From contig JAENYK010000006.1 in assembly GCA_016841825.1 (NCBI GenBank), positions 1 through 64,000 of the forward strand: 64,000 nt of DNA. Reading direction: 5' to 3'. The DNA is from Halothermothrix sp. (lineage in GTDB: Bacteria > Bacillota > Halanaerobiia > DY22613). The position numbers were made by a program, and so were the translations under genes. The notes under the pieces are model-generated. The model was not told where the DNA came from and ran no database searches. It saw only the letters and a program-made list of their open reading frames with translations. This document shows positions 3,788-20,584 of the stretch, one piece after another. The stretch's first letter is position 1; each line of letters opens with the position of its first letter.

Positions 3788-3816
3788 TTGACAAACAGTA
3801 AAGGTGGTGGTATACT
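3788..3816 (+). promoter_or_regulatory. Sigma-A promoter of the TPR-peptide operon
   Basis: TTGACA at 3788-3793, 17-base spacer, TATACT at 3811-3816. Transcription from about 3823 excludes the upstream in-frame GTG at 3804 and supports the ATG at 3858. Confidence 0.75.
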
Positions 3817-3857
3817 ATAAGTATCTTAACTTAATATTTTCCGAAAGGGGGATGGGA

Positions 3858-4868
3858 ATGAAAAATTACTATGAGTTAGGTAATGCTAGCTTTCGGAGAA
3901 AAGATTATATGAGAGCTATTGAGTATTATTCCATAGGCACAATAATAGGGGAGAATTGTGCCCTTGCGAAGAGAAATTTGGGTAGGATTTACTTTAGATT
4001 AGATCGTTATGACGAAGCTTTGGAGTGTTTTAAAGATCTGCTGAATGAAGATGAGAGATTCAAAACCTATGCCCTATCTATGATTGCTACCATTCACAAT
4101 ATAAGGGGTAATTATATAGCCGCATTGGAGATTATGGGGTCAATTCCTCAAAGTACAAACAGTATGATAAATCAAATTTTTATGCTGGGATATGTATATA
4201 AATATCATAAAGTTGTGAAAGCAATAACAAGAGCTGAAAGTATTTTGCGGAGACTCAAAACTGAATATTATGAAGGGGACAGGTTAACAAGTATTCTTTC
4301 GGCGGAAGGTTTTATATATATGGTGAAGCAGGAGTATAGTATGGCATTGGGATGCTTTATTCGTGCCTTCAATGTTGCCATAACTGATCTGTTTAAAGCA
4401 AAAGTTCTTAACGATATGGCTGAATGTTACATAGCTGATAATGATTTTATTAAAGCCCATCAGCTGCTTGATCAAGCATTTGAATTATTAGATGATGAAG
4501 CAGAGACTACTACATTAGCGAGTAATTATAAATTGCGTGGGATTCTTTATGAGATTCAAAAAGATTGGAAAAAGGCAAAGCTGTTTCTTATAAAAGCAAA
4601 AAATATATACAGAGATAAAAGTTTATTAAGACATCTCGCAGAAATTGAATTTTATTTAGCTAATATTGACTTTTCTAGACACGAAGGAAATGTCAAAAAT
4701 TGCAATGGAGGTCGTAGATATTTATATGTCGGAGCAGAAAAGTTCGCAAGAGGTTTCCAATATGAGAAAAAAGTAGAGGAGGTGCAGATCGAAGATGCAA
4801 AAATTATTGAGGATATTATTGATAGGCTTGATAGTGAGTGTCAGCTTAGTTTGGCCAGTTTTTGCTGA
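3858..4868 (+). CDS. TPR protein, candidate peptide receptor (Rap-like)
   Basis: 336 residues made almost entirely of helical tetratricopeptide-type repeats; the first two are canonical (pattern A..NLG.IYF.L..YDEAL.CF near residues 30-65). There is no N-terminal helix-turn-helix and no catalytic domain that I recognise. The start at ATG 3858 is preceded by AAAGGGGG at a good distance. An earlier in-frame GTG (3804) lies inside the promoter. The 3' end overlaps a small secreted-peptide gene in another frame. This is the arrangement of Rap-Phr and AimR-AimP, in which a cytosolic TPR protein is inhibited by a re-imported peptide. Which protein this receptor controls is unknown; the XRE repressor downstream on the other strand is the obvious candidate. 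Function is inferred from architecture and context only. Confidence 0.75.
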   Translation: MKNYYELGNASFRRKDYMRAIEYYSIGTIIGENCALAKRNLGRIYFRLDRYDEALECFKDLLNEDERFKTYALSMIATIHNIRGNYIAALEIMGSIPQSTNSMINQIFMLGYVYKYHKVVKAITRAESILRRLKTEYYEGDRLTSILSAEGFIYMVKQEYSMALGCFIRAFNVAITDLFKAKVLNDMAECYIADNDFIKAHQLLDQAFELLDDEAETTTLASNYKLRGILYEIQKDWKKAKLFLIKAKNIYRDKSLLRHLAEIEFYLANIDFSRHEGNVKNCNGGRRYLYVGAEKFARGFQYEKKVEEVQIEDAKIIEDIIDRLDSECQLSLASFC

Positions 4869-4926
4869 CCCAGTCTGGGATGATGAACCAGATGTTTATG
4901 ATCCAATAATTTTCGAATTATGTTAA
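4795..4926 (+). CDS. 43-residue secreted propeptide, candidate signalling peptide
   Basis: An ATG at 4795 follows AGGAGGTG (4777-4784) by ten bases. The product starts with a basic n-region (MQKLLR), a hydrophobic core of about 15 residues and a VFA-D cleavage site after residue 24. This would leave the acidic 19-residue tail DPVWDDEPDVYDPIIFELC. The gene overlaps the last 74 bases of the TPR gene in a different frame and ends just before a terminator. Length and layout match Phr and AimP propeptides. No homologue is recognised by eye, and the active fragment, perhaps the C-terminal hexamer or so, cannot be assigned from sequence. Confidence 0.7.
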   Translation: MQKLLRILLIGLIVSVSLVWPVFADPVWDDEPDVYDPIIFELC

Positions 4927-4930
4927 ATAT

Positions 4931-4960
4931 AAAAAAGCGCCCATTTTAGGGCGTTTTTTT
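4931..4960. terminator. Bidirectional terminator between convergent genes
   Basis: CGCCC/GGGCG stem with an A-tract on the left and seven T on the right. It closes the TPR-peptide operon and, on the minus strand, the repressor gene. Confidence 0.85.
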
Positions 4961-5489
4961 ATATTTCTCTTTCGATGAATGACATTACGTCTTTGATAGC
5001 ATCTTTATTAATGTTCAGTGCATTCAATGAACGGCGTATCGTCTCCATTTCTCTTAAAATCTTACCTTCTTCTAAAACCTCGGGTTTTACATTAAGGGCT
5101 CTGGAGAGAATTTTGATATGTTCTTCTGTAGGTTCCAACTTCCCCCGTTGGATTTGTGACAGATCTAAAATGCTAATCCCTGTCATTTCACTGACATCAA
5201 CCAATTCTAATTGTTTCATTCTGAGTAATTCGGTTAAGGAATCCGCTATCTCGATTCTTTTATCCCCATCTTCATCTAAAAATGTTTGCACAGAATAGTT
5301 GAACACTTCACAAAACTTGTGAAACAATTTTTGTGACATATTTCGTTTTTGGTTAATTAATAGACTTACATAAGATGCACTAATCCCCAGCAGTTCCGCT
5401 ATCTCTTCATTAGTCAAATCTCTAGAATTTTGAAGGCTTTTTAGAGCAACTGCTATCTTATCCTGGTCTAGATATGCCAATGGAAACAC
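4959..5489 (-). CDS. XRE/Cro-CI-type phage repressor
   Basis: 176 residues. A canonical HTH spans residues 27-50 (IAELLGISASYVSLLINQKR). A second, weaker HTH-like segment is near residues 75-105 (SEMTGISILDLSQIQRGK), followed by a helical C-terminal tail. The GTG start is supported by AGGAGAGG just upstream. It converges on the peptide operon and diverges from the tail cluster, the classic position of a lysogeny repressor. Its promoter is a perfect consensus with an operator-like motif in the spacer, and the same motif sits in the rightward promoter, so autoregulation and repression of the rightward genes are likely. There is no peptidase domain of the LexA/CI cleavage type, so induction would need another input, such as the TPR protein. 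Confidence 0.8.
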   Translation of the reverse strand: MFPLAYLDQDKIAVALKSLQNSRDLTNEEIAELLGISASYVSLLINQKRNMSQKLFHKFCEVFNYSVQTFLDEDGDKRIEIADSLTELLRMKQLELVDVSEMTGISILDLSQIQRGKLEPTEEHIKILSRALNVKPEVLEEGKILREMETIRRSLNALNINKDAIKDVMSFIEREI

Positions 5490-5515
5490 CCCCCTCTCCT
5501 GCCAGTCTTAATTTC

Positions 5516-5544
5516 ATTATACCCCAATAATTACAAAATGTCAA
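5516..5544 (-). promoter_or_regulatory. Consensus promoter of the repressor gene
   Basis: Read on the minus strand: TTGACA (5544-5539), 17-base spacer, TATAAT (5521-5516). The spacer contains TTGTAATTA, a relative of the operator motif at 5561-5572. Confidence 0.85.
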
Positions 5545-5554
5545 GAAAAATTAC

Positions 5555-5600
5555 TTGTATTGTAACGTTACATATTGTTATAATATTACTAACATTACAA
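5555..5600 (+). promoter_or_regulatory. Rightward promoter with palindromic operator
   Basis: TTGTAT (5555-5560) and TATAAT (5579-5584) are 18 bases apart. The spacer holds the perfect palindrome TGTAACGTTACA (5561-5572). A further inverted copy (AACATTACAA) lies at 5591-5600. Sites in both divergent promoters suggest a repressor switch controlling entry into the phage genes. Confidence 0.75.
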
Positions 5601-5639
5601 AACTATATGTAATTCAATTTGATGTAGAATTCTGGATAA

Positions 5640-6130
5640 ATTGAAAAAGTTTTATTCAGAGGTGAGAAGATAATAAACCAAAGAAAGGGGTGAACGAATT
5701 ACTAATAATGAAAATGCAATTGATATTCAGCAGCATGCCAATATAATGGAACACGTTATTCTCAGGTCATGTCCGACAGTGGAATAATAGTTGGAGAAGA
5801 TACAGTTTTATCTGATGGAATAACAATAGTGCAAAGGCATAAATCTGAAGAGTCGGTATAGAACAACTGGGCATGGATAATGAAGTAAGAGTGAAAGTGG
5901 GCGATTAAATGAAACCCTGCATATCGGCTGAGAAGCTGGATTGATTAACAAAGATATTGAAACCACGGAATATGATAAGGTGAGATATATATTGAAAACG
6001 GAGAATTTCTGGGATGTAACGAAGTCAATTGTTGAAGGTGAAGAACTACAAAGAAGTAAAGTTGGTTGAATGGCGAACGTAGATCAATTTTAATCAGGTG
6101 AGATTAATCTAAATCTGATCGGAACTGTCA
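5640..6130 (+). pseudogene. Decayed early phage genes
   Basis: Downstream of the rightward promoter there are ribosome-binding-site-like sequences and short coding-looking stretches interrupted by stops in every frame. Examples read as ...NAIDIQQHANIMEHVIL and ...DIETTEYDKVRYILKTENF. No intact gene of useful size remains. I read this as remnants of early (replication or regulatory) genes lost when the prophage was reduced; the original products cannot be named. Confidence 0.45.
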
Positions 6131-6154
6131 GCTTTATTTTGTGGAGGTGAAACA

Positions 6155-6643
6155 ATGGCACAGAAGTTTGATATTACATTGAGCACTATGGTGATAGATA
6201 GTGAGATACAGGCAGGTAAAGCAGAACAAGACATAATTCAACTAATGCGGGATAAATATTTAGAGATCGATGATAGATTGTTAAGTAAATTAATTCTGGA
6301 GAGAAAAAAAGCCTGGATAAAACAACTTCTAGAGAGCTATCATTCACTAAATAGTTGGGAACTAACCGGAGTTAATTGGAGAAGAAACTATTTTAATAGA
6401 TCTGGATACAAAATATATCGGGATGTACCGGATGGTTACGTCCTGAAATTGATGCTTGAGGAAGCTTTATCTGAATTGGGAAATGAAGAACCGAAGTTGA
6501 GAGATCTGTTGATTCTGAAGTATATTAATGAGATACCGGCGACTATTAAGGAGATCCAGAAAGTATTTAGCATATGTAAACAGACTGTTTATAATTGGTT
6601 GGACAGGGCACTTGAGTGTTTAGCGGAAATAATCGTTGCTTAA
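6155..6643 (+). CDS. Phage late-gene regulator-like protein (ArpU/RinA/sigma-like)
   Basis: 162 residues, mostly helical. The C-terminal 45 residues resemble a sigma region 4 or ArpU-type HTH (LLILKYI...TIKEIQKVFSICKQTVYNWLDRALECL). Such proteins sit just before late operons in Gram-positive phages and activate their transcription. A strong GTGGAGGTG precedes the ATG. The gene stands between the repressor region and the tail operon, and a strong promoter-terminator pair follows at once. The role is inferred from domain type and position, and the family assignment is uncertain. Confidence 0.55.
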   Translation: MAQKFDITLSTMVIDSEIQAGKAEQDIIQLMRDKYLEIDDRLLSKLILERKKAWIKQLLESYHSLNSWELTGVNWRRNYFNRSGYKIYRDVPDGYVLKLMLEEALSELGNEEPKLRDLLILKYINEIPATIKEIQKVFSICKQTVYNWLDRALECLAEIIVA

Positions 6644-6663
6644 AAATAATTTTTTTAAAAGTA

Positions 6664-6692
6664 TTGACTTATTTAGACTATTATGGTATAAT
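6664..6692 (+). promoter_or_regulatory. Strong promoter before the tail operon
   Basis: TTGACT, 17-base spacer, TATAAT. Transcription would start near 6699 and meet a terminator within about 50 bases. Confidence 0.8.
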
Positions 6693-6718
6693 TACATCAA
6701 TATAAGAAATATGTAAAA

Positions 6719-7004: not shown

Positions 7005-7027
7005 ATGCAGAATGGGGGCAAAAAAAG

Positions 7028-7501
7028 ATGATTACATTACCGCTTATGACTATCATCAGGAAGTGGGCCAATGCTCTTGCTGAAAGTCAAGATTTGCTTG
7101 ACTTCTGCGAACAGAAATACAACAAGCTCCCGACTATCTTCATCGGAAGTGATTATCAAAATCCGTCTTCCCAGGATGATTATCCAATAATCATTTTACA
7201 TCATGCCAAAAAAATCGAAGGAGATAAGATCGATAAGTATACTTATCGGATAGTCGTGGATTGGGGTATTTGGAATGATTTTGCGGAAAGGCAGGGTAAC
7301 ATTGTTGAGTTTGTGGGGATTGCTGAGGCGGATGAGATGGGTCAAATCATCCTGGATGTTATCAGTAAGGTAAATGAAAATTATCCTATCAGGAAAGTAT
7401 ATTATAATATTGTTCCTGATACTAATTTTCCATTTGTGCCCGGGCAAATGAAAATCAAGTTGGAAATTGAAACTTGTCCTGGATATCAGATTAATTATTA
7501 A
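7028..7501 (+). CDS. Probable tail terminator / head-tail joining protein
   Basis: 157 residues of mixed alpha/beta sequence, immediately before the tail tube gene. This is the position and size of tail terminator (gpU-like) or tail-completion proteins in siphophages. No diagnostic motif is visible, so the call rests mainly on synteny. A GGGGGC lies ten bases upstream of the ATG. It is the first gene of a tight operon running to about 18.1 kb. Confidence 0.5.
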   Translation: MITLPLMTIIRKWANALAESQDLLDFCEQKYNKLPTIFIGSDYQNPSSQDDYPIIILHHAKKIEGDKIDKYTYRIVVDWGIWNDFAERQGNIVEFVGIAEADEMGQIILDVISKVNENYPIRKVYYNIVPDTNFPFVPGQMKIKLEIETCPGYQINY

Positions 7502-7513: not shown

Positions 7514-8470
7514 ATGTCTAATGAATTAGGACGCAAAGGTCATTTGTTTATGTTTTTTGAAGATACGTTTGCAGAAAATCCTGCGGAAATCAATGCTTTT
7601 AAGGTACCGTTTATTACTTCAGAAATACAGGCAAAACAAAGTTTTGTTCAGGAAGAAGTAATTCGCAACAGTAGAAACCCTTTGCCATCAGGTAGAGGGT
7701 TTGTTGATGTTTCAGGTTCGATTGCGGTTCCCGTAGATGAAGTGGGAATGGGATTTTGGTTCAAAGCTATGTTTGGAAATCCAACAACTACAGAAATTAC
7801 TCCGGGCATATTGTATAGTCATGTCTGGAAATTGCTGGATGAACTGCATAGTCTGGGTCTGGAACAAGGTTTTAATGGAAAATCAAAATATTTTCTTTAT
7901 AACGGTTGTAAAGTCAGTAAAATTGCCATTGAATTGGGTGGCGAGGGAAATTTAAATGCTACGATTGATATTGCTGGGGCGAAAGAAACCTCTGGCGATA
8001 TTTCTGTAGATATCGATCCAACAGTTATACCTTTATATCGTTTTAATAATTTCCAAGGCATGATCAAAGAGGGAGGTGTGACTATAGCAATTGTCACAAA
8101 AGCTACTCTGGATATTGACTTTGACCTGGAAACTGGTGAAGAAACTTATCCGATTGGTAGTGGAGGCTATAGAACTAATATTCCTGAAGGGATTGCAAAG
8201 ATTACAGGAACATTAACTACCTTTTTCGAGGATGATGATTTGTTGACTAAAGGTTCTAATGGAACTGAGACCAGTCTTGAATTAGGATTGGTAAAAGGCG
8301 ATAAAGAGTTAAGTTTTTACATGCCGCAGATCCAGTTGGAACGAACTAGTCCATCCATTAGTGGAGGCAAAGGCGTAATGTTGGAATTTAATTATGAAGC
8401 GTATGAAAATGGAAATGCAGAGGGAACGGCTTTAGTGGTGACTCTCAAAAATGAACAAGAAACTTATTAA
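7514..8470 (+). CDS. Phage major tail tube protein
   Basis: 318 residues, rich in beta strands and short turns, with the N-terminal pattern typical of siphophage tail tube proteins (MSNELGRKGHLFMFFEDTF...). AAGGAGGAAG lies just upstream of the ATG. It would polymerise into the non-contractile tube through which DNA, or in a tailocin ions, pass. No sheath gene accompanies it, which separates this cluster from contractile (R-type or PBSX-like) systems. Position before the chaperones and tape measure supports the call. Confidence 0.75.
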   Translation: MSNELGRKGHLFMFFEDTFAENPAEINAFKVPFITSEIQAKQSFVQEEVIRNSRNPLPSGRGFVDVSGSIAVPVDEVGMGFWFKAMFGNPTTTEITPGILYSHVWKLLDELHSLGLEQGFNGKSKYFLYNGCKVSKIAIELGGEGNLNATIDIAGAKETSGDISVDIDPTVIPLYRFNNFQGMIKEGGVTIAIVTKATLDIDFDLETGEETYPIGSGGYRTNIPEGIAKITGTLTTFFEDDDLLTKGSNGTETSLELGLVKGDKELSFYMPQIQLERTSPSISGGKGVMLEFNYEAYENGNAEGTALVVTLKNEQETY

Positions 8471-8481: not shown

Positions 8482-8802
8482 ATGAGTATCGAACCAAGAG
8501 CAATGATCAGACCTGAAGTTAAAAAAATGCAGAAAGAGACTGGAGTCACGATCAATAAAATCATGGGAGCAGAAAGTGATCTCAAACGAGCAGATTATAT
8601 TTACCAGGTTTGTGACTGGATTTTAGAGAATGTTTACCATGAAGATGACAATCCTCAGATCCAGACAATGACTAATCCAGAAGCAATGACTCTGGCAATG
8701 GAAGTATATGGTTTGACCTTTGGAACTGAAACAGAGGTAAAAAACTCCTCGATGTCTGGCGATGGACAAGAGAACGATACAGATTCTGTGAATCCTGTAT
8801 AG
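8482..8802 (+). CDS. Tail assembly chaperone, short form (gpG-like)
   Basis: 106 residues, mainly helical and acidic, between tube and tape measure as in lambda G. AAGGAGGAG precedes the ATG. Codons 87-88 lie on the heptamer A AAA AAC (8739-8745), so a fraction of ribosomes should slip to the -1 frame and extend the product. Chaperones of this type coat the tape measure protein during tail assembly. Confidence 0.7.
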   Translation: MSIEPRAMIRPEVKKMQKETGVTINKIMGAESDLKRADYIYQVCDWILENVYHEDDNPQIQTMTNPEAMTLAMEVYGLTFGTETEVKNSSMSGDGQENDTDSVNPV

Positions 8803-9086
8803 AGTTTCAACGTCAGGCAAAAAAACAATATAACTGTAGTATGTGTGATGATAAACCACCCGAACTGATGCCGCAAAATTCAGAAGTATGGCTCTTATGG
8901 CAGAAAGTTAACACGCAATGGCGTGCAGGTGGTTTTTCGATTATTGGTCTGGATTATCCTGCAGTTATTCAGATTGCAGAAATTTACAATATAGATATTA
9001 CTATTGCCCTGATTGAAAAGATCAGGGCTTTAGAAGCTTTTGAGATAGAACGCTTTAATAAGAAAGGAGGTGCAGATAATGGCTGA
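8730..9086 (+). CDS. Tail assembly chaperone, frameshift extension (gpT-like)
   Basis: This is the -1 frame continuation of the chaperone. It carries two cysteine pairs (CESC and, about 16 residues on, CSMC) and the conserved stretch WRAGGFSIIGLDYPAV of phage tail chaperone second halves (DUF1799-like). An internal ATG at 8841 exists but has no good ribosome binding site, and the cysteine-rich sequence before it is coding, which favours expression by frameshift. The stop overlaps the tape measure start (ATGGCTGA at 9079-9086). Confidence 0.65.
   Translation, partial: NRGKKLLDVWRWTRERYRFCESCIEFQRQAKKQYNCSMCDDKPPELMPQNSEVWLLWQKVNTQWRAGGFSIIGLDYPAVIQIAEIYNIDITIALIEKIRALEAFEIERFNKKGGADNG
8739..8745 (+). 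other. Programmed -1 frameshift site A AAA AAC
   Basis: In the short chaperone frame this reads GTA AAA AAC, a textbook X XXY YYZ slippery heptamer. The -1 frame opens at 8730 and runs to 9086, giving a fused protein of about 201 residues. This mirrors lambda gpG/gpGT and many siphophages. Confidence 0.75.
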
Positions 9087-12000
9087 ACAGATAACAATTA
9101 GTGGAAAAGATACGATCTCGCAAGTTTTCAAATCTATTTCGAATGCGGCTACCAGTATGGGTAAAACTGTCAAATCCCAACTTACGGGAATTGCTGATCA
9201 GTTCAAAAAAATAGGTCAGACTGCCCAGGAATTAACCGCTCCGCTTAAAGCTAGTTCTGGGTTAATGGTGAGAGTTGGGAGTGATATGGTAAGTGCAGCT
9301 TATCAGGCCGAATTAGGAGCAACCTTGTTTCAAAATGTCCTCAGACGAAATAATCAAAATATCGCTGAGGTTGACCAACAGCTCGAACAATTATCTGAAC
9401 AGCTGAAAATACCTACTGACATAATTAAGCGGAATGCAACAGAACTAATCCGCAGTGGGTATTCCTGGGAACAGGTACAACAAATATATACAGGGGCAGC
9501 TGCTTCTGGTATGTTAGTGGGGAAAACCACCTCTCAGAGTATTGAAAAAGTAACCGAAGCTCTAATTACTCAAATGTCCACATATTCAAATCAGATCGGT
9601 ATTGTGCTGAATCTTAACACTGCATATAGCGAATACGCTAAAAGTGTCGGTAAGACTGTTGAGAGTCTGACTGCTGAAGAAAAAGCGGCAATAGCTACTT
9701 TAATGATTACAAGATCCACTGCTGATGAAGTGAAAGATTTACCTAAACTATTTGAGGGCTATGGCGGAGCTCTGGCAGATACTTCAAAGGAAGCTTACGA
9801 GGCAAAGAAAGCCTTCGGGAATGAGCTGCTACCTGTCTGGACTCAATTCTACAGAACAACCGCGGATGTACTGCATACTTTTAATACTATGGCTGAACCC
9901 CAAAAGAATTTTATTATCAGTATTGGTAAAATAGCAGCAGGAGTTGTTGCTGCGGCGAGTGCTCTCTCTTTTCTTGGTACAGGTATCAACATGATAATTA
10001 AAGGAATAAGTCTTTTCGGATCTGTCGGAACTCTTGCCTTTTCGCCTATCGTTCTCGGGGCTGTAGGAGTGGCAGGGGTAGGGTATTTGATTTATGAGGC
10101 ATGGAATCAAGATTGGGGAGGAATTCGCGACAAGATTGCTGGATTTAGCTCAACAGTTCTTGAAAAGTTTGAAGACATTAAATCATGGTGGAATGAATCA
10201 AATCTTAAGACAGCGGTGGAATCATCTTTGGTAGATATGAAAAGTGCTTTTGAAACTGCCTTTTCGGGCATCAAAAATACTGTCACTACCAATTTCGATG
10301 ACATAAAAGCCATTTGGTCAGACCCCGAATTAACCAATGCCGAAAAGATATTAAATACTGCTAAAGAGGTGGCTCAAACAATGGTAGAAGTGGCGGATCA
10401 AGTAACTGCTTTGACCTACCGGACACTTGCCAGTGCAGCGGATATTGGAACTGGACTTATTAAGGATGTGCGTGAGTTTCTTGAGCCATTTAAAGAAGCA
10501 CTTCACGAATGGACAATGTCTGCAAAAGACGGTGAACCGACGGATTGGAGTGCGTTTTTTGAGACTATTCAAAACTCCAAAACGTATAAAGCTTATCTTG
10601 AGTTGGGAGAATCGCTGGGGCAATTGATGATAGAAGGGGTAAAATTGGCTTTTGACATTGGTCAGATGATTCTTGATGCTCTGGTAGGTATTGTGGCCCG
10701 AACTGGAGAGGCTCTTAAGCAGTTGGGGATTGACATAGCGAACAAAATCAAAGATGGATTAGGTGACGAGTTGGGAAAATTTGATCTCTTTGACTTCATA
10801 GGTAAGCTCATTGGTACAAAAAAAACTAAGGCTCAACAGCAATACAGTGATGCTATGACAAACCCGAGTTATACACCAGATACTGTAATGCAAAGTGGTC
10901 CAGTAGTAAAAACAAATTGGGAAAACTTTTTAGAGTTTCTAGGCAATAATACACCACCCTATTTCCACGACGGAGGTTTTTTGCCAGGAGTTTCAGGCCC
11001 AGATCAATATCTTGCCATGCTTGCGCCTGGTGAAGCTATAGTGCCAGCCAAAGCAGTTAGAGGCGGTTGGGCAGGTGTTTTGGAGTGGTTCAGAAGTCAG
11101 GGAGTACCAGGATTTAAAGATGGCTATGCTCCCGATATCCCGGGATTTGGCTCAACAAAAGATTTGCTCTCTGGTATCAATGAAATGTTTGACACGATCA
11201 AAATCGGGTTTCAAGAGTTTTTTATCCTTCTGTCAGACCATATTATGAAGTTAGTTGAAAAGTATGCACCAGATCAGGCAGAATGGATCAGAGATATAGT
11301 TAATACCATCAAAGAATTTTTTAAGCCTTCCGAAAAAGAGGATGATGAGTCCATCCCAGACGATTACCATCCAGGAGGGTTTGGTTTCGTCTTTAAAGAC
11401 CCAAGTCCAAGTAAATGGACAACAATTACCAAACAAGTTAAGGATCTATTTAAAAACATCACAGCAGGAGTCGGGCAACAAATATATGCCAACGCTCCCG
11501 TGGCAAACGCAGCGGTGGACGGAGCAAAGCAGGGGGCAGCAGGTGGCCCTGTCGGCATGATTGGTGGAGCTCTTGTCGGAATGATAACTCAATCAGAAAC
11601 ATTTTCGACCCTGATGGCCAACATTAACCCAATTTTGCAGGCAACTGCTGATGCTGTGGGAATGTTGTTGGAACCACTCTTACCAATTGTTAATATAGTT
11701 TCTACCATCTTAGCACCTATCCTGGACACTATAGGAGTTATTTTGAGTAGTTTATTGGCTCCAGCGTTTCAATTGCTGTTTCCAATTATCAAATTTTTTG
11801 GGGTATTTATTATGAATGTTGCGAAGATTGGTGCTGTGATATGGAATGGGTTTGCGACTGCAGTTAACAATGTCCTGGGCTGGCTTGGAATCCATATAGG
11901 AACTATAGATGTTTCTGGATTTGATGATGCTTTGAAAACTCTTACAGATACCACTTATGACAGCGCACTGGCCCAGGCAGAAAATACTGAAGAGATCAAA

Positions 12001-12264: not shown

Positions 12265-12540
12265 ATGGAATTGAATACTTATCTTGATAACCTTTTGGCA
12301 GAGAAACAAGAATATACCCGATTGAGAAGGGAATTATCAAATCAGATCGACCAATTACTTGCTGCTTTTTGGGCATCCACGCAAGTTGTTAGCGAAGAAG
12401 AAGATAAACAAGCAGATTTTATGGATCGAATTCAAATTCTCAGGCAAAAAATCAACGATTACAATTATCACGAAAACCAGCTTGATAGCCAAATACAGGC
12501 TGCGCGTGATGTAATTGTCGGTATGTCTGGAGGTGCATGA
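12265..12540 (+). CDS. Small coiled-coil tail protein
   Basis: 91 residues from the ATG at 12265 behind AAGGAGGG; a GTG at 12262 is the alternative. It is charged and helical throughout with heptad-like spacing, and I recognise no named family. Its stop overlaps the next start region, so it is translated with the tail genes. It lies in the slot between tape measure and distal tail protein. Confidence 0.6.
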   Translation: MELNTYLDNLLAEKQEYTRLRRELSNQIDQLLAAFWASTQVVSEEEDKQADFMDRIQILRQKINDYNYHENQLDSQIQAARDVIVGMSGGA

Positions 12541-12542
12541 TT

Positions 12543-15047
12543 ATGACAAGAAAACTACTGGATGGGGCTATTATAGCCCCATCTGATTTTAGTGTTATTG
12601 AGTTAGAAAATCCCCCTGCATGGGCTAATGTGCAGTTTGGGACTTATGATGTCGAAATAGGCGAGAAATTATCTGATATTAATGCATGGAATATGCTGAA
12701 TTCTTCGACTTATTCTGGTGGTAGGGCAATTAGAACGGCTGAAATTGGGGATGGATTTATTTTTTCGGCAATGGGTCAAGTAGATATATATAATTATGAT
12801 GCTAATTCTTATATTAAATATAAAGTATTTATTGACGGGCAATTTGATACTGAAATAATTTTCCAGGGTACTGATACAGTTCGTAAAACATGGAGTAAAG
12901 ATATAGGTAATACTTTACAAAATATAACTGTAGTGTTAAGCGATATATATACATCATCTTTTGTTGTTGATTACATTACTATTAGTCAAAGCACTGTAAT
13001 TGATAATCCGGGAGTCGAAACATACCCAAAAATTGAGATCGAACCAATCCCAACAGTCAAAAGATACCGCGTTATGGACGAAGAACAGATAAATATATAT
13101 GCATCTTATATTGATACATCGGGGCCTGTCGATAGTCCTACTCAAATGGAAATTCCGAGTGCTGAGATAACCGCAAAAGGAAATATGTATTTTCTTGATG
13201 GTCAAATAATGTCTACAAGTACTGGAACAATCGGTTTTCGGCGAGCAATGCTCTTCAATCTTGGTATCGACGAAGAAGAAATGTCTCATGCTTCGAGCTT
13301 GATCGCTGATGTTTGGGCATATGGTAGAGGGGCATTAACAACCAATGCTGATTTTGCGAATGGGTTGGATTCTTGGTCTTTTAGTATGAGTACAGGTGCT
13401 TCAGCATCCGCAAGTGTTGCTGATGGTATTTGTGAAGTCACCGTAAATGAGGGTGGAGAAAACTTTGGTTATGTAAGGTTATATCAATGGCTTGGTACTT
13501 ATCCTAGCGGTGCAAAATTCAGAACACGAATTAGATTAAAAGCCTCTAAAACGCCTAGTAAAACTCCCAGATTACGCACTTATAGTTTAACAACTTCCAG
13601 CACATTGGATGATCAATATCTTAATACTGTTAATACTGAATGGCAAGAATTTTCAACAGACGTAATTACATTATCGACTGAAACTGATCTACGCATTTTA
13701 TTTTATTTTGGGGGTGATGATGATATCGTATACTATATAGATTACATTACAGTTGAGGCATATGGGGCTGAAATGTATGTATATAGAGATGATCTATGGT
13801 GGATAGTTAGTGCAGCTACACATAATCAAATATCTCCGTCTAAAATGCGTTTTGATGTTTTACCAGATGATATTTATTCTCCGTCTGATTATATACATGA
13901 TGGTATTTTCCCGGTTTTAATTGTGCCTACATATCCTAGTGATGGGGTAAGTGGTGGTACTACTTATGTAGATTATTATGAGGTCGAAACAACATCACAA
14001 TATGCAAAATTGTCTTCTAATTTTTTGGTTAACACTGTTGATAATCTTGTACCGCCATTTACATCTGATGAATGGGAAAACTACGATCATTTAACGACAA
14101 TTATTTCTGATTATAAAGCTAGAAAACTATTTTCGGGTGCTGCTTTTTCTGGTAGAAGCGAAGTTAGTATACCTGTGAAACCCAACACAACTTATTCAAA
14201 GTCAATCAAAAATCTTGATTCTACATGTAGATATATAGCTAGATTTTTAGATAAAGATATGCAACAAATTGGTAGTGATATATTGGAAGTAAATACTACT
14301 TTTACAACACCCGAGAATATTGCATATATCCGATTGATAATATATATAAGAAGTACTGGGAGTGCTGTTATCGGACAGTCGTATATTTTTGAGAACCCAA
14401 TACTAACCCAGACAGATACACCCCAGGCATTTAAACCCCAGCGGAAATACACTCTTTCTACAGATACTCCTATAACTGTAACATCAGGAGAGATTGTATC
14501 TATAGATGGAACACTAATTAAATCCTACAAAAATAGTGAGTCTGTACTTGAATCTATATCCCAGAACTCTAAAGATACAGGTTTTAAAATACTTCAAGGT
14601 GTTAACTATCTTGATTTTTCTATTTCTGGCGGATTTGCGAAGGTATCTGTAGTAGATGAAGGTACAAACAAAGTGGCAGCGATAGACGAAGAATACCTGC
14701 CTCATATGACTAAGATCGAAGAGTCAGCAGAAGATCTGGCAGAATACACGCAAACACCGGGTGGGGCAACTCGCATGGATTTAATTGTCCTTAATGGAGA
14801 TATAGTCAAAGCTGGCAAAAAATCGTGGAATATTGAAACTCCCTGGATAGATGTCTCTGAGGCGAATAGATTTATTAACTACCTAAAATCAAAACATTTT
14901 GTTCATGTAACTTTCTGGTTGGATGAATTCGGAGGTGGAGGCAAAGCTGTAACTGCTCTGATTAGACCTTCAAGCATAAAGGTTGTCAGAGAAGGGGCAA
15001 GAACTTATAATTTGAGAAAATTAACTTTTACAGTAGAGGAGGCGTAA
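12543..15047 (+). CDS. Distal tail protein with inserted carbohydrate-binding-like domains
   Basis: 835 residues from the ATG at 12543, eight bases behind GGAGGTG; an ATG at 12537 is too close to the ribosome binding site. The first 30 and the last 200 or so residues look like a tail-tip scaffold. The middle holds beta-rich modules; one at about residues 270-410 resembles a CBM4/9-like jelly roll (NADFANGLDSWSF...W..F) and a second lies at about 500-620. The middle is visibly more AT-rich than the ends, which suggests exchange of receptor-binding modules. It probably forms the distal ring and contacts host surface sugars. Confidence 0.6.
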   Translation: MTRKLLDGAIIAPSDFSVIELENPPAWANVQFGTYDVEIGEKLSDINAWNMLNSSTYSGGRAIRTAEIGDGFIFSAMGQVDIYNYDANSYIKYKVFIDGQFDTEIIFQGTDTVRKTWSKDIGNTLQNITVVLSDIYTSSFVVDYITISQSTVIDNPGVETYPKIEIEPIPTVKRYRVMDEEQINIYASYIDTSGPVDSPTQMEIPSAEITAKGNMYFLDGQIMSTSTGTIGFRRAMLFNLGIDEEEMSHASSLIADVWAYGRGALTTNADFANGLDSWSFSMSTGASASASVADGICEVTVNEGGENFGYVRLYQWLGTYPSGAKFRTRIRLKASKTPSKTPRLRTYSLTTSSTLDDQYLNTVNTEWQEFSTDVITLSTETDLRILFYFGGDDDIVYYIDYITVEAYGAEMYVYRDDLWWIVSAATHNQISPSKMRFDVLPDDIYSPSDYIHDGIFPVLIVPTYPSDGVSGGTTYVDYYEVETTSQYAKLSSNFLVNTVDNLVPPFTSDEWENYDHLTTIISDYKARKLFSGAAFSGRSEVSIPVKPNTTYSKSIKNLDSTCRYIARFLDKDMQQIGSDILEVNTTFTTPENIAYIRLIIYIRSTGSAVIGQSYIFENPILTQTDTPQAFKPQRKYTLSTDTPITVTSGEIVSIDGTLIKSYKNSESVLESISQNSKDTGFKILQGVNYLDFSISGGFAKVSVVDEGTNKVAAIDEEYLPHMTKIEESAEDLAEYTQTPGGATRMDLIVLNGDIVKAGKKSWNIETPWIDVSEANRFINYLKSKHFVHVTFWLDEFGGGGKAVTALIRPSSIKVVREGARTYNLRKLTFTVEEA

Positions 15048-15050: not shown

Positions 15051-18000
15051 ATGGGAGAATTAAACCTTGCCTTAAAGACATATCCACGAATATTAATTAG
15101 CAGACCTAATGGCACATGGATGGACGTTACCAGATGGGCCAGAACTGCCAGCATTGATCTTGGGGATGTCTCGGGTGTTGGGACTGGTAAGACCGGTGCT
15201 GATGGCATATGCAGAATGTTGGAACTTTCTCTCGGAAACGAAAGGAGCGGATTAGATGGAATATCATTCTCATTCAAAGACCTGACCAGTCCAATAAATC
15301 AAATAGATGGTCAATTTGCTCCTCTTTTGCAAGATGGTAGAGAAATAATCTTGCAAACCGCTCAGTTACCCTTTGGAATTGAAGCGATGGAACAGGATTT
15401 TAAAACCATCTTTCACGGTGTTCTGGGCGATGATTTTAAAGCGACTCGCAATGGCGCGGAAATTATGTGCCGCGATCTATCATATAAAGCATCTGGCCCT
15501 CATGCTTTCATGTATGATGTCGTTACATATGGTTCTGAAGAAGGGATATTGGCTGAAACTGTGATCCAACAGATGTTCGATGATGTATTAGGAACGGGGA
15601 TTTTATCCCTATACTGTCCTGAAACGACAGGTTGGATGGTGAAGGAGTTTACTCCACGATATCAGACACCCTGGAATGTAGCAAATGATATCGTTAACCA
15701 ATTCGGCTGGTATTTTGGATTTATGACTGCTCCGGATGGATTATATAGACCGCATCTAATCGAACCTCCAAGATATGCTGACGTAGAAACAGCGGATTTC
15801 TATATTGACTGGAATGGTGATATCAAGACCCAGAGTATTCAAACCTCTGGACTTGGAATAAGAAACTGGATAATTGTCAGATTCACCGATGAATCTGGTG
15901 AGAGAATAGAACTTAATCCTAATGACTATCCAGAATTAAAAGACCAGAATTCAATAGATGAATATGATAAAAGACCAATGCTCATTGAGTTAGATGACAA
16001 TTCTCAGATAAAAACAGTAGAAGAGGGTTTGACTCTTGGGGGTTATGCATTATTCGATTTAAGTAGTAAGGTTGGTACAACAAGAGTTGATATGCCGTAT
16101 TTTCAAAAGATGGACGTATTTAAATCTATGGTAATCCGTAATCGAGCTATATCATCCACAGACGACTTTTACGGCTGTTTGTCAGTTCGTCACGAATTTG
16201 ATTTTAGTCAAATTCCCGCAACAGGCACTACCACTTTTCTTGCAAATGGTAAAGTCGTAGGAGGGCATAGACGTTGGTTGGATAGAGAGACAAGGGTTGG
16301 AGCACCTGGTCAGCCAATTAACTCAGGAAGATTAGATCCAGCCAGACCACCCGCTCCGCTTGGTTTGCAGATAGCGAAAAATGTCAGGGTAGCAAGAACA
16401 GGACAGGTTGTCTTGGAAAATATGCTAACATGGAATCAGGTCTCGGATTTGGGCATTGAATATCTTGTAGAGCGGTCGATAAATTCAACCGATTGGTATC
16501 AGGTGGGCATAACTCAGCGAGGTTCAGAACGATACACAGACAGCAATCTTGAAGAGGACACAACATATTACTATCGAATCAAATCTCGCTATACAGCTAC
16601 AGGAAAAACATCATGGTCTGGCGGAATGCAATCAGTAACAGTAGATCAGATACCTGAAGCACCGGGAGGAACTATAACTCTAACGGCAGAAGCAGAGATA
16701 AATGCTATTCGGGTCACAATCAACCATGAGAACGCACCGGCAGATATAGCCACGTATAAGGTCTATGCTGAAACTACGTCCTCTATCGACCCGAATACAA
16801 ACCAAATACGGGATGGGTTGTTACCTAAGTCAAATTATCTGGGTATGTTCCACACAGTTCCTGCTACTCCTGGAGAAAGCTATTATATTGCAGTAGTAGC
16901 TGTTAATAGTAGCGGATTAGCTGGTTTACCCGTTGAGATTCAGGGAGGGCAATCGAAATTAACCAGCCGCAGAGACATGGATGCTAGCATGTGGCAAGTT
17001 AATGTAACTGTTTCTCACTCGGATGCAATCACTTACCATGATGTGTATGATATTTTGCGATACCCTGAGAATTTGGTCTACGCATGGGTGATTGATTATG
17101 ATTTTTTTTGGATTCAATTTGAATATCCAGTAGCTCACATTATGGATGCATTGGAATACAAAGTATATGCAGATGACTTAGATTTAGATCTTTATTATTT
17201 TGCTCCAGCATCTATTCAGTATTATGATGATACTATTCAAGATTGGCGGGATATATCATATACAGTTCAGACTATATCAGGGGATTTAAAAAGATTCAAT
17301 TTTGATGAAATGAGAAAAATTTATAAATTTCGTTTAAATTTTTCTGGCTTTAGAGATATGATTGAACCAGGAGTAAACAGGGCTACAAGGGGTTTAGAAT
17401 TATATTGTATCAAACCTCGTATTAGAGGTTTTTTTGACCTCATAGACGCAGAACAGGTCAATGCTAATCAGGTTAATGTTATAACTGGTAATCCAGACGA
17501 CAATCACCAAATTATCACAACTGACGGCATAGAGGGATATGTCAAAGGTGAAGATGGAATTTTGAGGCTGGCGAGCATTCGGAAGAATACCGGTGAAGAG
17601 ATAATGTACAATCCTAATTTTGATTCCGGGACTACTTATAAGGGGATTCCCGTTGGGAAGCTCACCTGGTTAAAAGGTTCTGACGGCACACTTAGAGATT
17701 CGCGGAATTATCCCGTTATTGATATTAACGGTGATACTGCAGAAAGAGTTGTTGCACAGGGGACGATTTTAGAGCCAGACGATATTATTTCCTGGGTATT
17801 AATAGGGCAGACTATCACTATAAGCGAAAATAAGATTCTATTTGTTGTGATAGAACCGTTTGAATATGGGTATCTGATTGATACAAACATAAATATTGAT
17901 TATATTGTAGAACAGAATGGTGCTTTTATTGTTGATGGTGTTATGCATTATTATTTAGAGGGGCCGGCAGTTTTCGAAGATGTCGATATTAGAATATTGT

Positions 18001-18134
18001 TTTCCGTTACGGAATGGGCTGGTTCTGGTATAGCAGATCAAATTTATTTTCCATTTAGGTGGAAAATAGTAGAAGTTAACAAGAATACTACAGTCTATGA
18101 CCCAATTCAGGGTATACCAATTATACAAGACTAA
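15051..18134 (+). CDS. Tail tip / receptor-binding protein with fibronectin type III domains
   Basis: 1028 residues. Roughly the first 410 resemble a tail-hub (Tal/gp27-like) domain. Two fibronectin type III-like domains follow (about 440-640, with YLVERS..S..W..VG and YYYRIKSRY patterns). Next are a beta-rich region and a C-terminal receptor-binding-like domain that is more AT-rich than the start. AGGAGG precedes the ATG, and the gene follows the distal tail gene by three bases. It would plug the tube and determine target range. The exact hub family is not certain from reading alone. Confidence 0.65.
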   Translation: MGELNLALKTYPRILISRPNGTWMDVTRWARTASIDLGDVSGVGTGKTGADGICRMLELSLGNERSGLDGISFSFKDLTSPINQIDGQFAPLLQDGREIILQTAQLPFGIEAMEQDFKTIFHGVLGDDFKATRNGAEIMCRDLSYKASGPHAFMYDVVTYGSEEGILAETVIQQMFDDVLGTGILSLYCPETTGWMVKEFTPRYQTPWNVANDIVNQFGWYFGFMTAPDGLYRPHLIEPPRYADVETADFYIDWNGDIKTQSIQTSGLGIRNWIIVRFTDESGERIELNPNDYPELKDQNSIDEYDKRPMLIELDDNSQIKTVEEGLTLGGYALFDLSSKVGTTRVDMPYFQKMDVFKSMVIRNRAISSTDDFYGCLSVRHEFDFSQIPATGTTTFLANGKVVGGHRRWLDRETRVGAPGQPINSGRLDPARPPAPLGLQIAKNVRVARTGQVVLENMLTWNQVSDLGIEYLVERSINSTDWYQVGITQRGSERYTDSNLEEDTTYYYRIKSRYTATGKTSWSGGMQSVTVDQIPEAPGGTITLTAEAEINAIRVTINHENAPADIATYKVYAETTSSIDPNTNQIRDGLLPKSNYLGMFHTVPATPGESYYIAVVAVNSSGLAGLPVEIQGGQSKLTSRRDMDASMWQVNVTVSHSDAITYHDVYDILRYPENLVYAWVIDYDFFWIQFEYPVAHIMDALEYKVYADDLDLDLYYFAPASIQYYDDTIQDWRDISYTVQTISGDLKRFNFDEMRKIYKFRLNFSGFRDMIEPGVNRATRGLELYCIKPRIRGFFDLIDAEQVNANQVNVITGNPDDNHQIITTDGIEGYVKGEDGILRLASIRKNTGEEIMYNPNFDSGTTYKGIPVGKLTWLKGSDGTLRDSRNYPVIDINGDTAERVVAQGTILEPDDIISWVLIGQTITISENKILFVVIEPFEYGYLIDTNINIDYIVEQNGAFIVDGVMHYYLEGPAVFEDVDIRILFSVTEWAGSGIADQIYFPFRWKIVEVNKNTTVYDPIQGIPIIQD

Positions 18135-18148
18135 ATAGGAGGTTCAAA

Positions 18149-18410
18149 ATGAATAAAAAGATTTTGGTTGTTTTAGTTGTTTTGCTGTTATTTCTACATT
18201 TTGGAAGATGGACGCTGGAATTCAAAAAAAAGATTAAATGGCGGAACGTATCGACTAGATATGTTAGAGTTTCAGGTAGATTTTTTTTATCATTATTATG
18301 ATGCAGGTACTGCTTCTATAGAAAGTGGCATATCAACTCCGATAGAATTCAAATGGCAAATAGTTGAATCAAAATTGGAAAGCGATGTTATTCCCGGGAC
18401 GCCTTATTAA
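18149..18410 (+). pseudogene. Small membrane-anchored phage protein with a poly-A frameshift
   Basis: ATG at 18149 behind AGGAGG opens a 15-residue hydrophobic N-terminus (MNKKILVVLVVLLLFLHF). The frame then passes through a run of eight A (18223-18232) and soon stops. Removing one A restores a continuous 86-residue protein ending IVESKLESDVIPGTPY at 18410. Either the gene is broken, the read has one A too many, or transcriptional slippage on the A-run makes the protein. Function unknown; it may anchor or accompany the neighbouring lipoprotein. Confidence 0.5.
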
Positions 18411-18444
18411 AAAAAGAAAGTACTTTAAAGATAGGGGTGATTTT

Positions 18445-18783
18445 ATGAAAAGAGTATTGATCTTTATCATTATACTGATTGGTTTGGTTTTAACCACGGG
18501 GTGCACTGTAGGAGAACCAAATTTTAAAGTTAAACAAATTTATCTTACAGAACATTCTTTGGTCACTATTAAAGTCGAAAACACTGGGAATGCTTCAGGA
18601 TACCTTAGCGGAGTAATAAAATGCGAATATAATTATAATTTTGCTCATGGTCTACCAATTTCGCCAGGAGAGATACATGAAGTAAAAGTTTTGGTTCGTA
18701 TGCCAGATGAATTTATCATAGAAATATATTCTGACGGGAAATTGACTGATACAGTCATGTATACAAATCAAAATACATACTAA
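18445..18783 (+). CDS. Small lipoprotein of the tail cluster
   Basis: 112 residues from the ATG at 18445 behind GGGGTGA. The N-terminus is a lipoprotein signal with the lipobox LTTGC (Cys about residue 21), followed by a short beta-rich domain. Longer in-frame starts upstream have no ribosome binding site. Phage-encoded lipoproteins often block adsorption or injection by related particles. By position this could protect the producer from its own tails, but that is inference. Confidence 0.6.
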   Translation: MKRVLIFIIILIGLVLTTGCTVGEPNFKVKQIYLTEHSLVTIKVENTGNASGYLSGVIKCEYNYNFAHGLPISPGEIHEVKVLVRMPDEFIIEIYSDGKLTDTVMYTNQNTY

Positions 18784-18806
18784 GGAAAGTGACATTTATT
18801 TTAACC

Positions 18807-18838
18807 AAAGGAGTAGGCAAAACCTGCTCCTTTTATAT
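18807..18838 (+). terminator. Terminator closing the tail operon
   Basis: AAAGGAGTAGG pairs with CCTGCTCCTTT, followed by a short T-run. It separates tail genes from the lysis cassette. Confidence 0.65.
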
Positions 18839-18861
18839 TTCCATAGAAGGGTGGGGATAAG

Positions 18862-19482
18862 ATGAACGACGCTTTATTTCAATCAGTCTCTCAATATGTA
18901 TTTGGGGGGCTTTTTCTATTTCTGCTGTGGTATGTTCTGGACCAAAACAAGAAAAGAGAGGGGTGGTTACAGAATCACAAGAGATTAACAAGCAGACAGT
19001 CAGCATTGAAAAAATATAAAGGGAGGGTGAGGATAACCGTGCATGAAGTTGTAGAAGGCTTGAAAAGGTTTTTCGAAATGCCTATCTGGAAAGGAATTTT
19101 TTCGGGGGTCAGCTGGGCAGTACTGCAGATATTTGGTCTACCAAACGGACCAATGAAAGCATTCGTCTTTTTGTTATTCGCTGATCTAATTACGGGCATA
19201 TACAAAGCGTGGAAAACACGAACGCTTAAATCATTTATTTCCCATGAGAAAGGGCGTAAGAAATATATTACTTATGCCCTTATCTTATTCCTGGCCCATT
19301 TTTTGGATATGGCTGGTTATGGTGGTGTAAGGGATATAGCTCTTTTGTGGAGTTGTTGGACCGAATACATTAGTATCACCGAAAACTTAAAAATGGTTGG
19401 GATTAATCTCCCTATACCATTTGCCAGCCGTTTGGATTTGGAAAATAAAAAGCTGGGGTTTAAGGATGGTGACACAGAGTGA
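18862..19482 (+). CDS. Holin, apparent fusion of BhlA-like and holin_4-like parts
   Basis: 206 residues. The first 35 or so (MNDALFQSVSQYVFGGLFLFLLWYVL...) look like a BhlA/UviB-type holin. The part from about residue 70 (PIWKGIFSGVSWAVLQIFG...) looks like a TcdE/phage_holin_4 protein with three membrane segments. A GTG at 19039 with GGGAGGG upstream could start the second protein alone. If one base were restored near 18961, the first protein would stop at 19019. So two holins may have been joined by a small deletion. Together they would permeabilise the inner membrane. Confidence 0.65.
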   Translation: MNDALFQSVSQYVFGGLFLFLLWYVLDQNKKREGWLQNHKRLTSRQSALKKYKGRVRITVHEVVEGLKRFFEMPIWKGIFSGVSWAVLQIFGLPNGPMKAFVFLLFADLITGIYKAWKTRTLKSFISHEKGRKKYITYALILFLAHFLDMAGYGGVRDIALLWSCWTEYISITENLKMVGINLPIPFASRLDLENKKLGFKDGDTE

Positions 19483-19979
19483 AGATAATTAATCTGATCG
19501 ATCAACTTCCTGTACATTCCGAGAAGAGATATAAGACACGGGAAGTCGGGGAGATAAAAACTGTAGCTATTCATCACAGCTTGACGAAAGATATTCCTGG
19601 CAGTGGAGATATTTTTGCTTTTGCCAGGTATCATGTTAATGATCTGGGTTGGCCAGGGATTGGGTACACCTATGTTATCGATACAGATGGAACAATATAC
19701 AAATGCAATAATACCGCTACTGTCAGTTATCATGTAGGCAAACATAACCGAAGTAGTCTTGGAATATGTCTTGTAGGTGATTTTCGGAGCAAGTCACCAT
19801 CAATAGAACAACTTGAAGCATTATATGAATTGGCCGGAGTGATCATGGAAGCTTATTCCCAGATCACTCCAACTCATTTTGTGGGCCATAATGAATATGA
19901 AGGATATGGATGGAAACAATGTCCAGCAATTGATATGAATTATCTCAGAAAAGAAATCAGAAAGAGGGTGCAGCGATAA
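19479..19979 (+). CDS. N-acetylmuramoyl-L-alanine amidase (endolysin)
   Basis: 166 residues; an Amidase_2/PGRP-type zinc amidase. The motif AIHHS is at residues 30-34, YHVGKHN near 84-90, and a late H...C pair (FVGHNEY..., KQCPAID) matches the zinc ligands. There is no signal peptide, so it needs the holin for export. The GTG start overlaps the holin stop. It would cleave peptidoglycan to release particles. No separate cell-wall-binding domain is present. Confidence 0.85.
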   Translation: MKIINLIDQLPVHSEKRYKTREVGEIKTVAIHHSLTKDIPGSGDIFAFARYHVNDLGWPGIGYTYVIDTDGTIYKCNNTATVSYHVGKHNRSSLGICLVGDFRSKSPSIEQLEALYELAGVIMEAYSQITPTHFVGHNEYEGYGWKQCPAIDMNYLRKEIRKRVQR

Positions 19980-20584
19980 TGAAAGCGATAAAATGGATCT
20001 GGGGTGTGTTGGTAACTATCTTAGTAGCTCTGGCATATCTATTCTGGCCGGGGCTTGATAATGGACAATTGAAAGAGAAGGTTTTGGAGATCAACAAATC
20101 TGCCAGAGAGGAGAAAAGGAAGCAGACTGAAATAAGAAATAGGATGGAGAGTCGAAATCTTGAACAAAAAGGCAGGCAAGATAAAGCCCGCAAATTGAGT
20201 GATAGATTGAATAAGCTTCCTGTGATTTTATTTCTAATCCTGATCTGTTCCGCTTCGGGATTTGCAAAAAATTTGTGTACTGCTGAAAATATTATCCCTG
20301 ATGATTATGAAAGTCTTCTGGAGTATTACAGAGAAATGTCTGAGATAGCAGTAGAATATAAATCTCTCTATGAAGAGGCTGAAAAATCGCTTAGTGAAGC
20401 TCAGGTTGATACTCAAGCTATGATGGAATCAAATGACAGACTTCAGGAACTAATTAAAACACAACAGACCATAATTGATCAGCTCCTCAAAAGGAAAGAC
20501 ATATCGCTGGAAACAGGGCTAAACTTTGTTCCCCTTGACCCTCTCAGATCAGGAATAATTATTGGAATAGAATGGTCGTTTTAA
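19979..20584 (+). CDS. Two-segment membrane/coiled-coil lysis protein, possibly spanin-like
   Basis: 201 residues, start overlapping the amidase stop (TAATG). It has a transmembrane segment at residues 7-25, a highly charged coiled coil at 30-78 and a second hydrophobic segment at 81-96 that looks like a signal peptide (ILICSASGFA-K). Another coiled coil spans 115-170, and the C-terminus ends GIIIGIEWSF. A terminal aromatic strand of that kind resembles an outer-membrane insertion signal. In a two-membrane host this last lysis-cassette gene could act on the outer membrane, but the assignment is tentative. It may also be a fusion of two former genes. Confidence 0.5.
   Translation: MKAIKWIWGVLVTILVALAYLFWPGLDNGQLKEKVLEINKSAREEKRKQTEIRNRMESRNLEQKGRQDKARKLSDRLNKLPVILFLILICSASGFAKNLCTAENIIPDDYESLLEYYREMSEIAVEYKSLYEEAEKSLSEAQVDTQAMMESNDRLQELIKTQQTIIDQLLKRKDISLETGLNFVPLDPLRSGIIIGIEWSF

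Follow-up and report, generated by a model that had tools for sequence, protein, structure and literature searches.

The two experimentally known circuits that combine a separate Xre repressor with a receptor lacking a helix-turn-helix (HTH) domain, those of pLS20 and ICEBs1, use an inhibiting peptide (PMC3814332, PMC6540685). In the Bacillus plasmid pLS20 (RcoLS20-RapLS20-PhrLS20), the role of antirepressor falls to RapLS20. Its inhibitor, the peptide Phr*, derives from a propeptide of 44 residues whose gene is coupled to rap, and the circuit works without a protease (PMC3814332). In ICEBs1 (RapI-PhrI-ImmR/ImmA), an HTH-less tetratricopeptide repeat (TPR) protein lifts the Xre repressor, the peptide inhibits, and DNA damage provides a second input (PMC6540685). 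Peptide communication also serves the lysis/lysogeny choice in the arbitrium system AimR-AimP of SPbeta phages, in which the repressor lacks a cI-type cleavage domain, the SOS response is involved and AimR itself binds DNA (PMC8612738). Flexible headless tails that remain, with lysis genes, from a prophage are represented by the F-type tailocin rhizoviticin, which shows that loci in such a transitional state can be active (PMC10811719). The locus considered here lies in a 64,000-nucleotide stretch of Halothermothrix sp. DNA (GCA_016841825.1, contig JAENYK010000006.1, positions 1 to 64,000), hereafter called the window. At 3858-20584 it carries, in this order, a gene for a TPR protein (+), a 43-aa open reading frame (ORF, +), a double-HTH XRE gene (-), a leader without a recognisable gene, a late-regulator-like gene (+) and a tail and lysis operon (+) reaching to 20584.

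We consider it probable that this cluster is a prophage remnant comprising an immunity switch, a late regulator, tail genes and lysis genes, and that the switch is a peptide-gated antirepressor circuit. The trio of TPR, peptide and XRE genes is conserved together with its peptide core, and the switch, its promoter region, the late regulator and the late promoter are homologous to those of a complete prophage. The comparison covered 59 genomes of the class, in which the family is represented by two: the window's own (G000) and that of the only other sequenced genus (G001). The parts named in the first-pass annotation (TPR protein, peptide, convergent XRE gene, late regulator, tail and lysis genes) are all present. 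The features of the switch and of late control are as follows.

3692..3720, + strand: upstream promoter-like site for the TPR gene, TGGAAA-17-TATAAT, in a region that aligns with the promoter bearing a LexA-like box in the G001 prophage
3788..3816, + strand: main TPR promoter-like site, TTGACA-17-TATACT, extended -10
3858..4868, + strand: TPR receptor-like protein, 336 aa, without HTH, predicted antirepressor
4795..4926, + strand: propeptide, 43 aa, MQKLLRILLIGLIVSVSLVWPVFA/DPVWDDEPDVYDPIIFELC (slash, inferred signal-peptidase site), a conserved overlapping ORF
4938..4953, no strand: terminator-like hairpin between the convergent genes
4959..5489, - strand: double-HTH XRE repressor, 176 aa, two HTH_3 domains (Pfam)
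5516..5544, - strand: XRE promoter-like site, TTGACA-17-TATAAT, 12/12 consensus
5560..5600, no strand: operator-like cluster of sequence matches, TTGTAACGTTACAT (5560), TTATAATATTACTA (5578) and TACTAACATTACAA (5587)
5601..6154, + strand: leader in which no gene can be recognised and which lacks phage early genes
6155..6643, + strand: late-regulator-like protein of phrog_36 type with a C-terminal HTH; its counterpart in the G001 prophage, encoded ahead of the terminase genes, shares 52% identity
6664..6692, + strand: late promoter TTGACTTATTTAGACTATTATGGTATAAT, agreeing with the corresponding G001 prophage site at 26/31 positions

Close relatives of the TPR gene number four, namely the window copy, one on a further contig of the same genome (G000 C14:239875, locus L016) and two in G001 (742389, locus L012, and 3261203, locus L015), so that all are confined to the two sequenced family members. 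An overlapping +1-frame ORF with a [DN]P-x-[WY]-x-DEP core lies 3' of each of them, beginning 53-74 nt inside the TPR gene with a Lys- or Arg-bearing start and then a hydrophobic stretch; the cores read DPVWDDEP (window), DPGYIDEP, NPNWADEP and DPAWDDEP. The window ORF overlaps the TPR gene by 74 nt and has a good ribosome-binding site, and inspection by eye shows a Lys-rich start, a long hydrophobic stretch and a VFA/D site. The DNA pattern for the core matches exactly those four sites in the 59 genomes (two matches for the reversed control). The core codons lie 3' of the TPR reading frame, overlapping it at most at the stop codon, and TPR coding constraint therefore does not account for the core. 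Judged by this conservation, the small ORF is more than a chance reading frame and the signalling pair is real. The broad form of the core was defined after the peptides were known, which makes its control (0/65) descriptive only. When a stricter peptide pattern was applied to wider genome contigs, none of the matches listed encoded a signal-peptide-like propeptide. A profile search of those contigs with the TPR alignment gave no confirmed relative, the module search of viral contigs recovered only the G001 prophage itself, and the TPR protein had no match in the phage collection.

The TPR protein, whose gene probably starts at 3858 (or 3852) and not at 3804, matches only TPR families in Pfam (TPR_12, E=3e-16); no HTH was matched there, unlike in AimR with its N-terminal HTH. 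Its 336 residues fall inside the 250-500 aa expected of TPR receptors in RRNPP pairs, and the small ORF agrees with the expected adjacency and length of 10-100 aa, while the 74-nt overlap slightly exceeds the -60 bp limit of the published detector (PMC10075063). The structure model (pLDDT 83) overlays Rap of phage phi3T (Z 23.7, 3.8 A over 284 residues) and also phi105 Rap, NprR and the pLS20 Rap-Phr* complex (Z 21.4).

A double-XRE gene meets each of the four TPR/peptide units head-on, and the unit at L015 is flanked by one on both sides. The five top matches of the XRE profile all adjoin the four TPR genes, partly by construction, as the profile was built from them. The arrangement is that of pLS20 (PMC3814332, PMC4207663): in both, the receptor gene and then the peptide gene lie downstream of, and facing, an Xre gene divergent to the controlled operon, the propeptide is coupled to the receptor gene, a protease is absent, and operators (operator-like sites in the window) are located at overlapping divergent promoters. 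The likeness that is shown is one of layout, not of sequence; pLS20 controls conjugation in an unrelated host, its Rap has the N-terminal domain and its peptide is the C-terminal pentapeptide QKGMY. ICEBs1 differs in requiring the ImmA protease and in sensing DNA damage through RecA rather than through a LexA box at the receptor gene, and arbitrium differs in that AimR itself binds DNA, whereas the window splits receptor and DNA-binding protein into two genes.

The XRE protein had been described as lacking a self-cleavage domain, and no peptidase or autocleavage domain was indeed found in it with Pfam, which sets it apart from cleaved repressors of the cI/LexA type. The divergent promoters said to lead to the late genes are likewise both present, but of the rightward promoters the strongest is the late one (6664-6692), which lies beyond the late regulator gene. 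The other, which the operator-like cluster overlaps, has a good -10 (TATAAT, 5579-5584) and a weak -35. The operator-like region aligns with the XRE promoter region of the G001 prophage in 59 of 87 columns (68%; E=3e-6 between 0.7-kb regions). TTACAA/TTACAT direct repeats at 3760-3780, just 5' of the main TPR promoter, resemble the half-sites at the XRE operators. The palindrome was also considered as a window-wide operator family and dropped for want of any excess, the local cluster and its conservation being retained. Near-identical double-XRE genes also stand beside flagellar genes in both genomes (L047 and L048), where no TPR gene accompanies them, and form a conserved orphan of the XRE family.

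The trio at G001 742389 occupies the immunity position of a complete prophage, the roles having been assigned by reading ORFs. It is followed by a small Cro-like XRE gene, partition and replication genes, a late regulator, terminase, portal, head and tail genes, a holin and an amidase, and IMG/VR lists the prophage among its viral contigs. In the TPR tree the window copy groups with that of the prophage (support 91/93), and in the XRE tree they share a clade with the C14 copy (87/90), unresolved inside. Identity between window and prophage reaches 33% for the TPR protein, 45% for XRE, 52% for the late regulator and 42% for the holin, and the tail genes are barely alignable. A shared promoter, TTGACTTA[TC]TTAGACT[AT]TTAT, follows the late regulator directly and occurs nowhere else in 150 kb at <=4 mismatches. 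Because coding and non-coding parts both match the prophage, the window cluster most simply descends from such a prophage, of which it would have kept switch, late control, tail and lysis. By the same sequence comparison, the link between signalling and phage genes is not accidental.

It could be argued instead that the trio is a host signalling module that came to lie by chance beside a tail cluster whose genes obey some other control. Two of the four close trios and most of the looser relatives are chromosomal, and a tRNA-Leu fragment at 3227-3293 marks the end of an element just left of the trio. Against this, a complete prophage from another genus shows the same juxtaposition. Its XRE promoter region, late regulator and late promoter are homologous to those of the window, and its XRE gene faces the divergent early promoter. 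We regard the chance-neighbour explanation as the least probable of those weighed here.

The tRNA-Leu fragment is 67 bases long, agrees at every base with the 3' part of the intact gene for tRNA-Leu on contig C8, and is likely an attachment-site copy ending a helicase-bearing element immediately left of the TPR gene. The helicase, a DEAD-box protein resembling HamB of Hachiman defence, is encoded at 41-2986, at the extreme start of the contig, so that its partner gene would fall off the contig. The G001 prophage carries ParM/ParR-like genes, with no integrase seen in the stretch read, and beside it are short-repeat arrays resembling CRISPR (L012:1-800 and 1700-3400). A second paralogue of the late regulator (37%; L207, G000:C1:4110-4631) is located on a 7.5-kb contig with phage early genes and then a transposase-like gene.

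Evidence on the direction of control comes from LexA boxes. With boxes taken from the lexA promoters of both genomes (scores 13.8-17.1), 150 kb were scanned (150,019 positions). The second best position is a LexA-like box, AGAACATGCGTTCG, at L012:7109 (score 16.4), a few bases after the -10 of the promoter that reads into the TPR gene of the G001 prophage. Its core AGAACATNCGTTC occurs once in G001, at this promoter, and once in G000, at lexA. A gene that heads a prophage and is controlled by LexA would be expected to favour lysis, and the box therefore supports the TPR protein as antirepressor and the peptide as its brake. At the matching position the window reads AGAGTAAATTATTTACCGAT instead, a GTAAATTATTTAC palindrome, and between 3290 and 7030 it has no LexA box (best score 6.2 bits). 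A site at 15566 (score 15.0) lies inside a tail gene and was discounted. The strongest LexA-box-like site of the scan, AGAACATTTGTTCT, falls at 55469-55482 of the window, between a pgpA-like gene and the ORF at 55635.

We infer repression, antirepression, the identity and sign of the peptide, and the production and function of tails from this arrangement, as follows. The XRE protein would shut off rightward transcription from 5560-5600 and with it expression of the late regulator, on which the late promoter at 6664, and hence the tail and lysis genes, would depend. The TPR protein would bind or titrate the XRE repressor and so lift repression; a conserved C-terminal helix, FIEREI, may be the docking tail for a contact between the two proteins. 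The product of the small ORF would be exported by the Sec pathway, trimmed to a short peptide around DPVWDDEP and re-imported, whereupon its binding would inactivate the TPR protein. The producer would then lyse and release its tails whenever the peptide fails to keep pace with TPR activity, as where few neighbours carry the same locus, and release would be blocked among kin. The peptide is read as a veto on the TPR protein because the pLS20 circuit has the same layout and because a LexA-type box lies at the TPR promoter of the related prophage. By this analogy, peptide scarcity is the likely condition of release, the reverse of quorum-triggered release.

The first-pass annotation had proposed the opposite sign, namely that the peptide builds up in dense populations and switches the receptor on, whereupon repression is relieved and tails are released. 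Every component for this is present, and the peptide is co-transcribed with the receptor. Activating peptides exist among RRNPP receptors that bear an HTH. The window receptor has none, the peptides of pLS20 and ICEBs1 switch their circuits off, and the LexA-like box at the prophage TPR promoter suggests that the TPR protein is itself the inducer. We therefore think density-triggered release unlikely. The accompanying idea, that the receptor-peptide pair provides control independent of SOS, fared better: the conserved trio heads a complete prophage and no LexA box lies within 3290-7030, but the peptide is probably a brake and not the trigger.

DNA damage might nevertheless be the real trigger and the peptide only a tuner, as the LexA-like box of the related prophage could suggest; arbitrium phages likewise need the SOS response for induction (PMC8612738). 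In the window itself the homologous position holds other sequence, the XRE protein lacks a cleavage domain, and inspection showed no gene for an ImmA-like protease next to that of XRE. An SOS-inducible element thus appears unlikely, if a little less so than a quorum-triggered one, and peptide-linked control of the tail cluster is likely.

The genes downstream of the late promoter, which is followed by an AT-rich hairpin and T run at 6715-6747, are these.

7028..7501, + strand: first late gene, 157 aa, phrog_17431; tail completion/terminator role inferred from its place before the tube gene
7514..8470, + strand: tail tube protein, Phage_tube_2, E=4e-46
8482..9086, + strand: two small tail assembly chaperone-like ORFs (8482-8802 and 8841-9086), the second DUF1799/phrog_680
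9082..12252, + strand: tape-measure protein, about 1056 aa
12262..12540, + strand: 92-aa coiled-coil-like ORF
12537..15047, + strand: large distal-tail protein candidate, phrog_13022
15051..18134, + strand: minor tail/tail-tip protein candidate, phrog_6977, weak fn3
18439..18783, + strand: small lipoprotein-like ORF, LTTGC lipobox by eye
18862..19482, + strand: holin, Phage_holin_4_1, 42% identical to the G001 prophage holin
19479..19979, + strand: N-acetylmuramoyl-L-alanine amidase (endolysin)
19979..20584, + strand: Rz-like spanin, weak match, phrog_739

The matches to tube, chaperone, tape-measure and minor tail proteins make up a complete non-contractile tail module, as in F-type tailocins, and holin, amidase and the weak Rz-like spanin a lysis cassette. 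Of the ORFs tested in 41-20584, and of 20 larger ones in 22-48 kb, none matched a sheath, terminase, portal or capsid, in a scan that left out 13 larger ORFs beyond 48 kb. The HK97-type capsid (PF05065) had no match in the window's genome, nor did the capsid-like protein of the G001 prophage, a query without a positive control. The late regulator and the tail-tip protein had no match in the phage collection, where the tail tube reached about 28% identity at most among the matches listed, and the tail tube and tail-tip queries found nothing among viral contigs. MT836000.1, a 14-kb record that might have been a relative without a head, proved to have a capsid-like gene and was rejected as a tailocin, and the structure model of the 157-aa first late gene (pLDDT 46) was discarded.

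With rhizoviticin the window shares genes for a flexible headless tail and for lysis that are left from a prophage, and a predicted tail length of about 160 nm (1056-aa tape measure, rule of thumb of 1.5 A per residue) stands against about 164 nm. Rhizoviticin keeps its early genes, and no peptide switch is reported in the account consulted (PMC10811719). The tailocin interpretation is favoured, on genomic grounds, by intact and tightly spaced late frames, kept promoters, a complete lysis set and a clean loss between the late promoter and the gene in the position of a tail-completion gene.

Simple decay of a prophage must be weighed here, with head, replication and integration genes lost by chance, tail and lysis genes under no selection and the switch a leftover of little function. 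The locus has no integrase, early genes or heads, 5601-6154 holds no recognisable gene, and the class yielded no second headless copy. Yet the tail and lysis frames run unbroken and closely packed over about 13.5 kb, the promoters survive along with the late regulator, and what is missing lay between the late promoter and a gene in the position expected for tail completion. F-type tailocin loci have this appearance, although a recent deletion would look alike; a working tailocin and a recently beheaded prophage may thus be indistinguishable by their sequence. We judge mere decay somewhat unlikely, but the strongest of the competing explanations. The functional tailocin of the first-pass annotation is not supported as stated. 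In its revised form it would be a working flexible tailocin, with a private secreted peptide controlling its release by way of a receptor and a repressor that are separate proteins. It would have been captured from a prophage that uses the same peptide switch, plus a LexA input, for lysis-lysogeny, and the peptide would be one of a pheromone family not described before, which has a P-x-aromatic-acidic core and has grown to at least a dozen receptor genes within a single bacterial family. This fuller proposal we put forward only tentatively.

Several observations weigh against a peptide-gated phage switch. Unrelated and eukaryotic TPR proteins score equally well in the fold comparison (Z 24-26), and the fold alone is therefore insufficient to indicate a peptide receptor. 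The N-terminal three-helix domain of Rap is lacking, as the protein begins in TPR helices and its residue 1 corresponds to about Rap residue 45-48. Operator sites are not in excess across the whole window (65 found, 74 expected, <=3 mismatches). No close relative of the headless cluster was found in the data searched and no second headless copy in the class, the family being two genomes. Finally, two of the four close trios are chromosomal and not beside phage genes; in these copies XRE may act on a different target, and the association with phage genes may be an opportunistic one. It had been foreseen that the proposal would suffer if the pair occurred mostly without the phage cluster, and among the relatives compared this is half the case: two of the four close copies are chromosomal and the looser TPR relatives are mostly non-phage. 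The trio is therefore a general module also used by phages rather than a phage-specific one.

This module has further members. Eight additional TPR genes in the two genomes together have adjacent, putatively secreted small ORFs, most of them with a P-x-aromatic-acidic core, and several of these pairs are also beside double-XRE genes. At L028 (G000:C22, TPR 346086-346901), a secreted 116-aa ORF (2517-2867, -) upstream of the TPR gene contains six 14-residue repeats around DPQNGGDEPF, comparable to the multi-copy pheromone precursors already described (PMC9765709). These sequences point to a lineage-specific pheromone family, and the main texts of the two RRNPP surveys searched name neither Halanaerob- nor Anoxybacter. 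Two small contigs with near-identical ends (L034 on C35 and L035 on C4) each carry a small XRE gene, a secreted peptide (GPAYDDDESN or APGFDDDEE) and a TPR gene, and look like a repeated mobile or duplicated module. Beside the chromosomal trio of the window's genome, five more TPR-like genes, each coding for about 300-345 aa, lie in tandem (L016:10718-15854).

If the proposed circuit holds true, peptide control of the arbitrium and pLS20 kind would extend to phages and to a headless tail weapon in a lineage where the surveyed literature does not describe it. The predicted sign is that the peptide shields kin from suicidal release. The two loci would also offer a natural before-and-after comparison, between a complete prophage with peptide and LexA inputs and a beheaded cluster with the peptide input only, and the peptide core opens receptors, signals and their cross-talk to tests with synthetic peptides.

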